Source: Desulfobacteraceae bacterium
Lineage (GTDB): Bacteria; Desulfobacterota; Desulfobacteria; Desulfobacterales; UBA11574
DNA length: 7,157 bases
Assembly (NCBI GenBank): GCA_029857875.1
Contig: JAOUGB010000110.1
Span: 1 to 7,157, forward strand
Reading direction: 5' to 3'
Positions 4,155 through 6,375 of this stretch are shown piece after piece (the stretch's first letter is position 1; each line of letters begins with the position of its first letter). The notes below the pieces were generated by a model, which did not search any database, was not told the origin of the DNA, and worked only from the letters and a program-made list of their open reading frames with translations. Position numbers and translations under genes: made by a program.

Positions 4155-4275
4155 GAAATGAACTTTATTGAATGATTAATAAAGGGTTGAATCGGCCTTT
4201 ACTTAATAGGTTTGGGTGATGAATGCAATTAGTAAAATTCTGATAAGTTATTATTTGCTCATTCTTCAAATGAAA

Positions 4276-4315
4276 AGATAAAAGGCAGAGCCACAGCCTG
4301 CCCTGCCTTTTATCT
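4276..4315 (-). terminator. Intrinsic terminator after the ParA/small-protein unit
   Basis: Perfect 13-bp arms AGATAAAAGGCAG (4276-4288) and CTGCCTTTTATCT (4303-4315) enclose a 14-base loop. On the minus strand the stem is followed by TTTCATTT, making a T-rich tail of the kind expected for termination of the transcript ending at 4420. The plus-strand side is followed by a poorer tail (CAATTTCGTTT), so it may also work weakly that way. It insulates the permease gene downstream. Confidence 0.65.
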
Positions 4316-4367
4316 CAATTTCGTTTATTCGGATTAAAGATTTCTAAACAAAAGCATAAAAATGTGG

Positions 4368-4419: not shown

Positions 4420-4737
4420 TCAGATAGAGGATTTTATAGAAATAATTACATCCTCCTTTCTGTGTATTCTTCTTTTCGGCGTTGAAATGTCTTCATTTTT
4501 TTGTAGATAAATACGCCTTATATTATATCCTTTTTCTATATGCTTGGACAGGGATCTTGCCATATTATTCTGAACATTTTCATCATTGTAAAAAGCAAGT
4601 TTTTTGCGAACAGTCACTGTTTCCTGGATTTCGCATTGATCTTCGGCCTGATGCAAATTCTCATTTGCGTTTTCTTTGGTTGACAAAAATATGTTTGAGA
4701 TCTCCTCTAAACCCCTTCCCAAGTTCTTTTTTTCCAT
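4420..4737 (-). CDS. Small ParA-partner candidate with ParB-like N-terminal motif
   Basis: Encodes 105 residues, with no family I recognise over its full length. The first residues, MEKKNLGRGLEEISNIF, match the N-terminal signature of ParB/Spo0J (basic residues, then LGRGL). In ParB and several ParA-activator proteins this segment contacts ParA and stimulates its ATPase, and Arg8 would be the key residue. Residues 22-40 are acidic and polar. Residues 43-105 form a basic region with 'VTVRKKLAFYNDENVQNNMARSL' (about 41-63), 'KGYNIRRIYL' (69-78) and 'PKRRIHRKEDVIISIK' (87-102), possibly a small alpha/beta domain. The ParB CTPase motifs and helix-turn-helix are absent, and the protein is about a third of ParB length. 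It starts 52 bases after the ParA-like stop on the same strand, with AAAGGG about ten bases ahead of the ATG. The role as ParA partner is an inference. Confidence 0.75.
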   Translation of the reverse strand: MEKKNLGRGLEEISNIFLSTKENANENLHQAEDQCEIQETVTVRKKLAFYNDENVQNNMARSLSKHIEKGYNIRRIYLQKNEDISTPKRRIHRKEDVIISIKSSI

Positions 4738-4789
4738 TTAGAATGCGCCCTTTATTCCCCTTTTCGTTCAAGCAGCGGTTGATTAGCTT

Positions 4790-5818
4790 TTAAATTCCAT
4801 CCTCATCGTTAAAAAAAGAATCCGTGGATCTGGTAGCAATGGCCTCGATCATCTGTGAATAATTGGATTGAGACGAATACGCAGGAAATTCCTCTACCTC
4901 AGAAGCCGGCGATTCATCCTCGTAAAATTCCTCCATTTCGGAAGCCGGCGGTTCATCCTCAGGCAATTTCGCGGCAGTGTCAATATATTCTTCTGTCTTC
5001 TGCAACATATCTTTCGCCGAGTTGGAGGTGTTGAAATTCTGGTACGCTCTGGTTTCCTCTGAGCGAATAACCTCCTCAGCCAGGTTTTCATAATCTATGT
5101 GACCAATGGCATGTTTATCATAATCTCCAACAGGCAGGCCAAGATCTGCTGTTTCTCTGAGACGGATATTGTAACGAATTACCGTGTCAAAGACATTGTT
5201 TCCAAATTCTTCTTGAACTTTTTCTAGAACAGTTCTGGAGTACCGTGTCCTGCGATCATACATCGTGATAAGAGCGCGAGATTTAATATCATGGCCAATT
5301 TTGTCTTTAAGCATGATAATGATCTCTATTAGTTTGGCAACACCGCGAAGAGAAAAAAGGCTCATATCGATGGGGATAATTACTTCATCGCAGGCACGAA
5401 GTGCATTAAAGCTAAGATGCCCAATGCTTGGGGGACAATCAATTACAATAAAGTCATATTGTTCTTTGAGAGGCTGAATGGCCTGAAAGAGTCTGTGTTC
5501 CCTCCTCTCCAGTCCTGAAAGCTCTTGTTCGAATGCACTGAGGATTAGGCTTGAAGGAGCAAGATCAAAGTTGTCTTTAACAGGCAGCAAGATATCCTCA
5601 ATCCCCCAAAGCCAATTTTTCTTTGGCGTTATCACATCATAAATAGTTTTATCGAGATCGGAAGGCTTTACGTTTAGACCCATGGTTGCGTGGGCCTGAG
5701 GATCAAAATCGATGAGCAATACCTTTTGTCCTTTTAGAGATAATGAAGATGAAAGGTTAATGGCTGTTGTTGTCTTACCGCATCCTCCTTTTTGATTTGC
5801 GCTCGCAATAACTCTCAT
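4790..5818 (-). CDS. parA: ParA-family ATPase with acidic C-terminal tail
   Basis: Encodes 342 residues. The deviant Walker A motif is K10-G-G-C-G-K15-T-T with the signature lysine K10. Walker A' is 'LLIDFDPQAHAT' (D37, D39) and Walker B is 'FIVIDCPPS' (D127). 'LGLPVGDYD' and the helix around 'TRYSRTVLEKV' (191-201, basic) fit the C-terminal part of the fold and non-specific DNA binding. The core ends near residue 255. Most small chromosomal ParA proteins stop there, but this one continues for about 87 residues. The tail is rich in Glu/Asp and Ser, with two 13-residue repeats (287-299, 300-312). There is no N-terminal helix-turn-helix, unlike plasmid type Ia ParA. The ATG is preceded by AAAGGAGG. 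The gene is co-directional with the 105-residue gene, and no ParB is present. It probably positions a cargo on the nucleoid; the cargo is unknown. The gene symbol denotes family only. Confidence 0.93.
   Translation of the reverse strand: MRVIASANQKGGCGKTTTAINLSSSLSLKGQKVLLIDFDPQAHATMGLNVKPSDLDKTIYDVITPKKNWLWGIEDILLPVKDNFDLAPSSLILSAFEQELSGLERREHRLFQAIQPLKEQYDFIVIDCPPSIGHLSFNALRACDEVIIPIDMSLFSLRGVAKLIEIIIMLKDKIGHDIKSRALITMYDRRTRYSRTVLEKVQEEFGNNVFDTVIRYNIRLRETADLGLPVGDYDKHAIGHIDYENLAEEVIRSEETRAYQNFNTSNSAKDMLQKTEEYIDTAAKLPEDEPPASEMEEFYEDESPASEVEEFPAYSSQSNYSQMIEAIATRSTDSFFNDEDGI
4883..4960 (-). repeat. Two tandem 39-bp repeats in the ParA-like tail
   Basis: Two in-frame copies (4922-4960 and 4883-4921) encode EDEPPASEMEEFY and EDESPASEVEEFP. 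Nine of thirteen residues are identical, and the DNA is also clearly similar, pointing to recent duplication. The repeat is acidic and carries Pro-Ala-Ser, so it is probably disordered. Confidence 0.85.
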
Positions 5819-5849: not shown

Positions 5850-5881
5850 AAAAATCTTTTATATTAAACAAAAAGATTTTT
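5850..5881 (-). promoter_or_regulatory. Inverted repeat in the parA promoter/leader
   Basis: Perfect 11-bp arms AAAAATCTTTT (5850-5860) and AAAAGATTTTT (5871-5881) are separated by ten bases, so the half-site centres are 21 bp apart, about two helical turns. It lies 17 bases upstream of the Shine-Dalgarno (5825-5832) of the ParA-like gene. A poor TTGAAA...TATAAA pair with a 15-base spacer overlaps the repeat on the minus strand. The site may be an operator for autoregulation. Being so AT-rich, it could also arise by chance. Confidence 0.4.
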
Positions 5882-5966
5882 CAAGGAAAAATACGATATA
5901 TTGTGTAATAAAGAATAAAACATACAACATAAAGTTGACAGCAGGTTCATAATAGAGTAGGAAGTC

Positions 5967-6017: not shown

Positions 6018-6375
6018 ATGCATAATATTCTGGTAATTGACGATGAAAAATCCATTGCATTCTTGACCACAATCGCATTATCTAAATCCGGCTTCAATGT
6101 CGAAAAAGCCGCAGATGGTTTAGAAGGAATTAAGAAATTCGATGAAGGCCATTTTGATTTGGTTATTACGGATATTTTGATGCCGGGCCTTGATGGCAAT
6201 GGTGTTGTCCGGCATATACGTAATTCAATAAGACAATCTACACCTTGTTATCGGTGTCTCTGGAACTCCTTGGCTTCTTAAAGACAGCGACTTTGATGCT
6301 GTCCTTTCAAAACCCTCCTCGATCAAAACTCTTGTTGATACGGTTAAGAATCTGACATCATCCATCCATAAGTAA
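6018..6375 (+). pseudogene. Single-domain response regulator (CheY-like), frameshifted
   Basis: The first 76 residues are a clear receiver domain: 'ILVIDDEKS' with acidic pair D8/D9, and 'DLVITDILMPGLDG' with phospho-acceptor D52. After 'RQSTP' the frame reads CYRCLW and stops at 6281. In the next frame from 6247 the domain continues as 'VIGVSGTPW', then 'FDAVLSKPSSIKTLVDTV', ending at TAA 6373-6375. Removing one T at 6245-6246 gives an intact 118-residue receiver with conserved Ser81 (VSGT) and Lys98 (SKP), the normal size for this family. No output domain follows, so an intact form would act through protein-protein contacts. As written, the product lacks the last two strands and the lysine and should not function. 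No slippery heptamer is seen at the site. A true mutation or a sequence error are both possible. The ATG at 6018 is preferred over TTG at 5991 because receivers normally start just before 'ILVIDDE'; GGGA at 6005-6008 may be its Shine-Dalgarno. Confidence 0.88.

Follow-up and report, generated by a model that had tools for sequence, protein, structure and literature searches.

Organization of the locus

The DNA analysed here (the window) is a whole contig of 7157 bases (C609) from a fragmented, 87% complete genome of 3.46 Mb. On its minus strand the gene of a ParA-type ATPase (5818-4790) is followed, after a gap of 52 nt, by the reading frame of a 105-residue protein (4737-4420) with the N-terminus MEKKNLGRGLEEISNIFLS..., and then by a terminator-like hairpin (4316-4275). 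A preliminary description of this DNA had reported both reading frames at these positions, an LGRGL-bearing partner beside the ParA in which no ParB domain was seen, and a window free of recognizable parS, and all of this was confirmed. The features were the following:

4790..5818, minus strand: ParA-type ATPase, 342 aa (179 bits to PF13614, cut-off 27; nearest chain of known structure 8ray, E 1.2e-48)
4793..5062, minus strand: acidic C-terminal tail of the ParA, residues 253-342, net charge -18, at the place where sister ParAs carry a glycogen-binding domain
4420..4737, minus strand: putative partner (adaptor) protein, 105 aa, of a family without a name (reading frame, homologues, conservation)
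4681..4716, minus strand: putative docking tag, partner residues 8-19, RGLEEISNIFLS (predicted helix 7-17, low confidence)
4438..4575, minus strand: C-terminal domain of the partner, residues 55-100 (AlphaFold2: helix 55-68, strands 75-85 and 90-100)
4275..4316, minus strand: terminator-like hairpin 3' of the partner gene, 17 pairs, 7 of them G-C
5879..5901, minus strand: non-coding element of 23 nt upstream of parA, containing TTGAAA

The hairpin likely closes the two-gene unit. Since the hairpin precedes the next minus-strand gene, which codes for an EamA transporter (4154-3264), that gene is probably not part of the unit. A CheY-like reading frame of opposite direction is located upstream of parA. 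This receiver gene (6018-6373) is broken about two-thirds along its frame, and because the copy at the related locus L081 is intact (127 aa), the break is either a recent event or an assembly error.

The small protein belongs to a nameless family

No Pfam or NCBIfam match was obtained for the small protein even at E 1, hence it has no match to the ParB_N CTPase or the HTH domain. A search of 5.8 billion proteins gave 95 matches with E values up to 10, of which 94 had a value no higher than 1.2e-16. Since these strong homologues exist and the reading frame is conserved across genera, the small ORF is, on comparative grounds, a real gene, and by the same measure its product is a member of a nameless family of Desulfobacterota. 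In a profile search 240 proteins were found at E 1 or less, the best 120 of which were examined. The family was present in 22 of 389 genomes of the class sample, in 23 of 389 genomes of the order sample, which was searched with a wider profile, and, own genome counted, in 6 of 395 genomes of the phylum sample.

The family has a short (approx. 102-125 aa) and a long (approx. 160-190 aa) form, and both have the N-terminal tag and the C-terminal domain. The insert of the long form contains four near-invariant cysteines (C40, C43, C56 and C82, in at least 90% of 86 sequences), which are likely to form a metal site. The C-terminal domain was modelled by AlphaFold2 as one helix and two strands, with block-mean pLDDT values of 90-98 for the short and 84-95 for the long form; when both models were compared with the PDB by Foldseek, no match at E 0.001 or less was obtained. 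The basic C-terminal 60 residues had been put forward earlier as a possible cargo-binding domain. The basicity itself could be seen in the window, where residues 45-105 carry a net charge of +7; however, it is not a trait of the partner family, since the median charge of the last 61 residues was only +3 (range -2 to +9, 33 proteins). Two relatives of the small protein, P0001 and P0002, carry the docking tag twice per chain.

The partner is paired with ParA and separate from ParB

The neighbourhoods of 35 partner genes from 27 genomes (the window and L081-L114) were compared. Among them are L108 and L110, where the match to the family is confined to the tag; a broken remnant with stop codons in G136 was excluded. 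In 31 of the 35 loci the gene immediately upstream, on the same strand, codes for a ParA, the gap being -79 to 453 nt. The expectation that homologues always sit next to a ParA was thus borne out at most loci, but not at L099, L106 and L111, where partners of the family proper have no adjoining ParA; the same is true of L110, which codes for a 353-aa protein with a family match restricted to the tag. Among the genomes with a partner locus lacking ParA, G260 (C187, C208) and G524 (C2) have ParAs of the clade elsewhere, and G366 has a 67% identical stretch of 63 residues close to the edge of a contig.

Besides ParA and the partner, no gene family occurred in more than 6 of 38 stretches, the flanks of which were of unequal length, and no co-conserved cargo gene was common beyond subclades in the neighbourhoods compared. 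At L104 (1046-1726) and five other loci a nameless gene for 226-234 aa lies 3' of the partner; in all six the ParA carries a glycogen-binding domain.

Neither a parS site nor a ParB gene accompanies the pair. The consensus of parS, which we take to be TGTTTCACGTGAAACA, had no match with up to 3 mismatches in the 7157-base window. An HTH_ParB match was present in 27 of 28 genomes, always on a contig other than that of the partner (27/27); the remaining genome of the 28 had no such match. The genome of the window codes for a ParB of its own (L117) with LGRGLDALL near its start.

Related ParA proteins carry a glycogen-binding domain

The Walker A motif KGGCGKTT, with the signature lysine, was found in the window ParA and in 58 of 58 members of its clade, as were the catalytic Asp and arginine 209. 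The window ParA keeps both arginines which align with two arginines of Soj that we assume to be DNA-binding, one of these being the counterpart of arginine 209; the second position (238) is an arginine in 12 of the 32 ParAs described next.

Of the 58 related ParAs compared, 32 (ParA-CBM) have a C-terminal glycogen-binding domain of the AMPK type. The window ParA has no PF16561 match, and the 26 window-type ("acidic-tail") ParAs are defined as all clade members without the sugar-binding domain, the frame-broken L085 included. When the ParAs standing beside partners of 160 aa or more were inspected by eye, 14 of 17 ended in the AMPK-type domain, the exceptions being L092, L112 and L113. In a Pfam scan two of these sister ParAs, L104 and L108, scored 46 and 43 bits for PF16561 (cut-off 26.8), a domain that is also annotated in relatives; AMPK beta-2 structures matched the L104 ParA weakly (E 4e-4 and worse). 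Changes of W100 and W133 lower the glycogen binding of AMPK beta (PMC2642990). A counterpart of W100 is present in 31 of 31 ParA tails, rows that were picked by that motif, and one of W133 in 30 of the 31 by script and in L097 by eye; the tail of the L190 ParA, which the script overlooked, has both tryptophans. Thus the sister ParAs share with AMPK beta the domain and its tryptophans and are predicted to bind glycogen, unlike the window ParA, from which the domain is missing. At L111 (9555-9806) an 83-aa ORF consisting of the glycogen-binding domain alone lies directly upstream of the tagged partner, with no adjoining ParA. Glycogen synthase (PF08323) was tried as a discriminating co-occurring gene and rejected as uninformative: it is present in 27 of 28 genomes and the only one without it, G206, has a ParA-CBM.

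In a maximum-likelihood tree of 67 ParAs, rooted by choice on the reference ParAs, the 58 clade members stood apart from the references (100/98). The 26 acidic-tail ParAs formed a single clade (100/100) nested within the ParA-CBM rows (94/89 at the joining fork), while an alternative with all ParA-CBM rows in one clade was not rejected (p-AU 0.264, quick tree). Loss of the glycogen-binding domain on the branch of the window is favoured by this topology, but not shown, and the branch probably exchanged the domain for the acidic tail. Since the domain is absent from this branch, its cargo probably differs from that of the sister ParAs. The net charge of the tails of clade ParAs without the sugar-binding domain ranges from 0 to -49, and a motif SNYSQMIEA is found near the tail end in 19 of the 26. 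A direct repeat of 36 nt lies within the acidic tail of the window ParA (4886-4960), and the ParA of L012 (423 aa) has a longer tail with similar units.

The window ParA was used as query in a phylum sample of 297 genomes and an order sample of 194 genomes. In the phylum sample 12 genomes had an acidic-tail ParA; in the 11 besides the own genome the identity was 56-69%, and the partner adjoined it in just two of them (G597, G639). Beside 11 of the 26 window-type ParAs no tagged ORF was present in any frame in stretches of 2.9-19 kb. Five of these 11 genomes (G524, G158, G575, G396 and G149) have a tagged protein elsewhere; the other six are G435, G465, G470, G598, G660 and G679. Because of these 11 cases, a solitary window-type ParA may act together with a partner in trans or entirely on its own.

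The N-terminal tag is common to different partners

The tag, found in 48 of 49 partners, reads [R/K]-G-L-[E/D]-x-[I/V]-[S/A]-x-hydrophobic-[F/Y]-L-S. The search pattern required I or V at position 6, S or A at position 7 and S, T or A at position 12, so these positions are not independent evidence, and rows L175-L190 were chosen by the tag itself. The first position was left free, R or K not being demanded, and was R or K in 47 of the 48 partners with a tag found by script. L181 and L183 were skipped by the automatic picking; their tagged ORFs are present under L163 and L165. In the subfamily of the window the exact LGRGL was found in only 17 of 94 proteins and the strict RG[LIF] in 65 of 94, whereas IS..FLS was present in 91 of 94. 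Arg8, singled out earlier for a test of ATPase stimulation, is thus not the best-conserved part of the tag in this subfamily, and many close relatives lack it; the partner of L090 has Met in its place. Among 93 further profile-matched proteins, mostly long forms within the best 120 of the 240, the strict tag was present in 92.

The search with the window ParA gave 16 further ParA-CBM loci at E 1e-60 or less (L156-L166 and L170-L174). At each of them the following ORF with a length of at least 200 aa, selected by position alone, carried the tag within residues 8-46 (16/16). L142 (G575:C309), a ParA-CBM below the 1e-60 limit with no tagged ORF within 2100 bases, stands outside this count, which would be 16 of 17 with it. 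The tagged ORFs at the 16 loci are proteins of 260-322 aa that have no match to the window-partner profiles past residue 50. When a profile of this second type (12 proteins, L110 included) was compared with that of the long partners, a stretch of 23 residues covering the tag was the only match (probability 93, E 3.1e-7). The remainder of the profile matched ParA weakly, the match starting immediately after Walker A (probability 50, E 1.6e-4), and a pattern search for Walker A was negative in all 16 partners of this type. Hence the second partner type probably has a ParA/MinD-like fold which lost the ATPase motif.

Several of the loci L175-L190 have a third gene, for approx. 190-210 aa, 3' of the second-type partner (clusters c2 and c11). 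Similar genes at L108 (10085-10693) and L110 (2214-2786) have no Pfam match over the cut-off. Behind its tag, the tagged partner at L161 (304-1200) weakly matches a MerR-type helix-turn-helix (E 0.00036, short of the curated cut-off).

Among the different partners the tag is thus the common part and the rest is swapped: it is attached to an alpha-beta-beta domain with or without the four-cysteine insert, or to what is probably a ParA/MinD-like domain devoid of Walker A. Such constancy beside one ParA clade, with the remaining parts of the protein replaced, is what would be expected of a ParA-docking element.

The putative binding pocket of the ParA

In the tag of the window, L6, R8, L10 and I13 have the same spacing as L11, R13, L15 and L18 of the ParB of M. 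xanthus, so that the match covers the first half of the tag. In that protein L11, L15, L18 and I19 bind ParA, and R13 is needed for the stimulation of the ATPase (PMC12462528). The ParA positions were mapped on the M. xanthus ParA and compared with seven reference ParAs, namely the 8ray chain and six that stand beside ParB-like ORFs. At position 116, a ParB contact, all seven references have V, all 26 window-type ParAs have Q, and the 32 ParA-CBMs have Q (23) or P (9). F occupies position 155 in 22 of the 26 window-type ParAs and in 31 of the 32 ParA-CBMs (53 of 58 in the clade), and in none of the seven references. Judged from these alignments, the two changes would insulate the pair from ParB, and they fit a pocket re-cut for a longer tag.

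The positions facing the arginine of the tag are occupied in all 26 window-type ParAs by Tyr (81) and by Glu or Asp (117). In the ParA-CBMs Tyr81 is kept in 16 of 32 and Glu117 in 2 of 32, though their partners keep the tag arginine. Because these residues are mostly lost there, the M. xanthus contact is not simply transferable to the ParA-CBM group. A co-variation of the partner arginine with the acidic residues of the pocket was considered and rejected, since the data run the opposite way.

Comparison with known systems

The pair resembles the ParABS system in its ParA ATPase domain and in the hydrophobic-R-hydrophobic spacing that the tag shares with the ParB peptide (PMC12462528). It differs from ParABS in the lack of a CTPase or HTH match in the partner and of parS in the window, in the presence of a separate ParB in the genome, in a tag that runs on into IS..FLS, and in the ParA pocket altered at positions 116 and 155. 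McdA/McdB and other ParA/MinD cargo systems likewise consist of two genes, a ParA and a small partner with a basic N-terminus (PMC10241942). Unlike McdA, whose Walker A is given as SGGQGKT (PMC9178275), the window ParA retains the signature lysine in KGGCGKT; its partner belongs to a different family than McdB, and no neighbour gene is common across the loci. Searches of the open-licence literature turned up neither this partner family nor a fusion of ParA with a glycogen-binding domain. Thus a ParA with an adaptor is a known kind of system, while the adaptor family, the tag kept across exchanged domains and the sugar-binding ParA are apparently new, at least to us.

Proposed function and alternatives

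We consider it somewhat probable that the pair is a positioning module, composed of a ParA and an adaptor of a new family. ATP-bound ParA dimers would coat the nucleoid and the N-terminal tag of the partner is predicted to dock on such a dimer; its binding would trigger ATP hydrolysis and the release of ParA, so that the cargo, likely something other than chromosome origins, would follow ParA or become spaced along the nucleoid. In the window type the conserved C-terminal domain of the partner is the candidate to bind cargo or to mediate dimerisation. The earlier proposal of a two-gene positioning system is supported in so far as the pair is conserved and ParB lies elsewhere; it needs revision in that the genes are not a lone pair but a branch of a larger ParA clade. 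A broader scenario is offered only tentatively: an ancestral ParA would hold glycogen by its own sugar-binding domain, interchangeable adaptors would share the 12-residue docking tag, and the window pair would be an offshoot that discarded the sugar-binding domain, acquired its acidic tail and transports another cargo.

It is unlikely, though deserving of attention, that the ParA is a nucleotide switch and not a positioner, the partner setting an ATP state that controls an enzyme or a polysaccharide process. BcsQ, FlhG and MinD-type proteins are regulators that transport no cargo, and such a role would suit both the location of the sugar-binding domain on the sister ParAs themselves, whereas in known positioners it is the partner that carries the cargo, and the window-type ParAs that have no tagged neighbour. 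The ParB-like tag counts against a switch, as does arginine 209, which aligns with a presumed DNA-binding arginine of Soj: it is kept throughout the clade, but would be needless in the cytoplasm.

Less probable still is a DNA-partition pair similar to ParF/ParG, in which the C-terminal domain of the partner would bind a centromere-like site, e.g. upstream of parA, and the pair would segregate a replicon or repress its own operon. In ParF/ParG a ParA also works with a small partner bearing a basic N-terminal tip, as in the window, and the basic C-terminal domain of the window partner would suit DNA binding. A possible site is the 23-nt element (5879-5901), which is identical in the window and three relatives, has one change in a fourth and is kept even where the surroundings differ (L088). 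Its 17-nt core recurs with 2 mismatches at four other places in the genome, the reversed control at none. The element is likely to be a promoter or an operator. However, there is a single exact copy of the core in the genome and the basicity is not conserved in the family. A plasmid or phage origin was considered, but the small protein had no match at E 0.001 in 72,556 plasmid and 50,697 phage records. ParA/partner pairs are found on contigs of up to 422 kb (L096), and the helix-strand-strand fold predicted for the partner is not the ribbon-helix-helix of ParG. Finally, the tip of the small protein resembles that of the ParB of its own genome, yet a decoy or modulator of the chromosomal ParA/ParB is very improbable, as the protein co-occurs with its own ParA subfamily, the pocket of which differs from the reference ParAs at 116 and 155.

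As for the meaning of the positioning module, many bacterial ParA/MinD ATPases are called orphans, since their partners are too diverse to be recognized (PMC10241942). A constant tag on exchanged domains would be a handle for finding the partners throughout a ParA clade. For the sister systems the predicted glycogen-binding fusion names a candidate cargo: may storage granules be spaced and inherited by means of a nucleoid ATPase?
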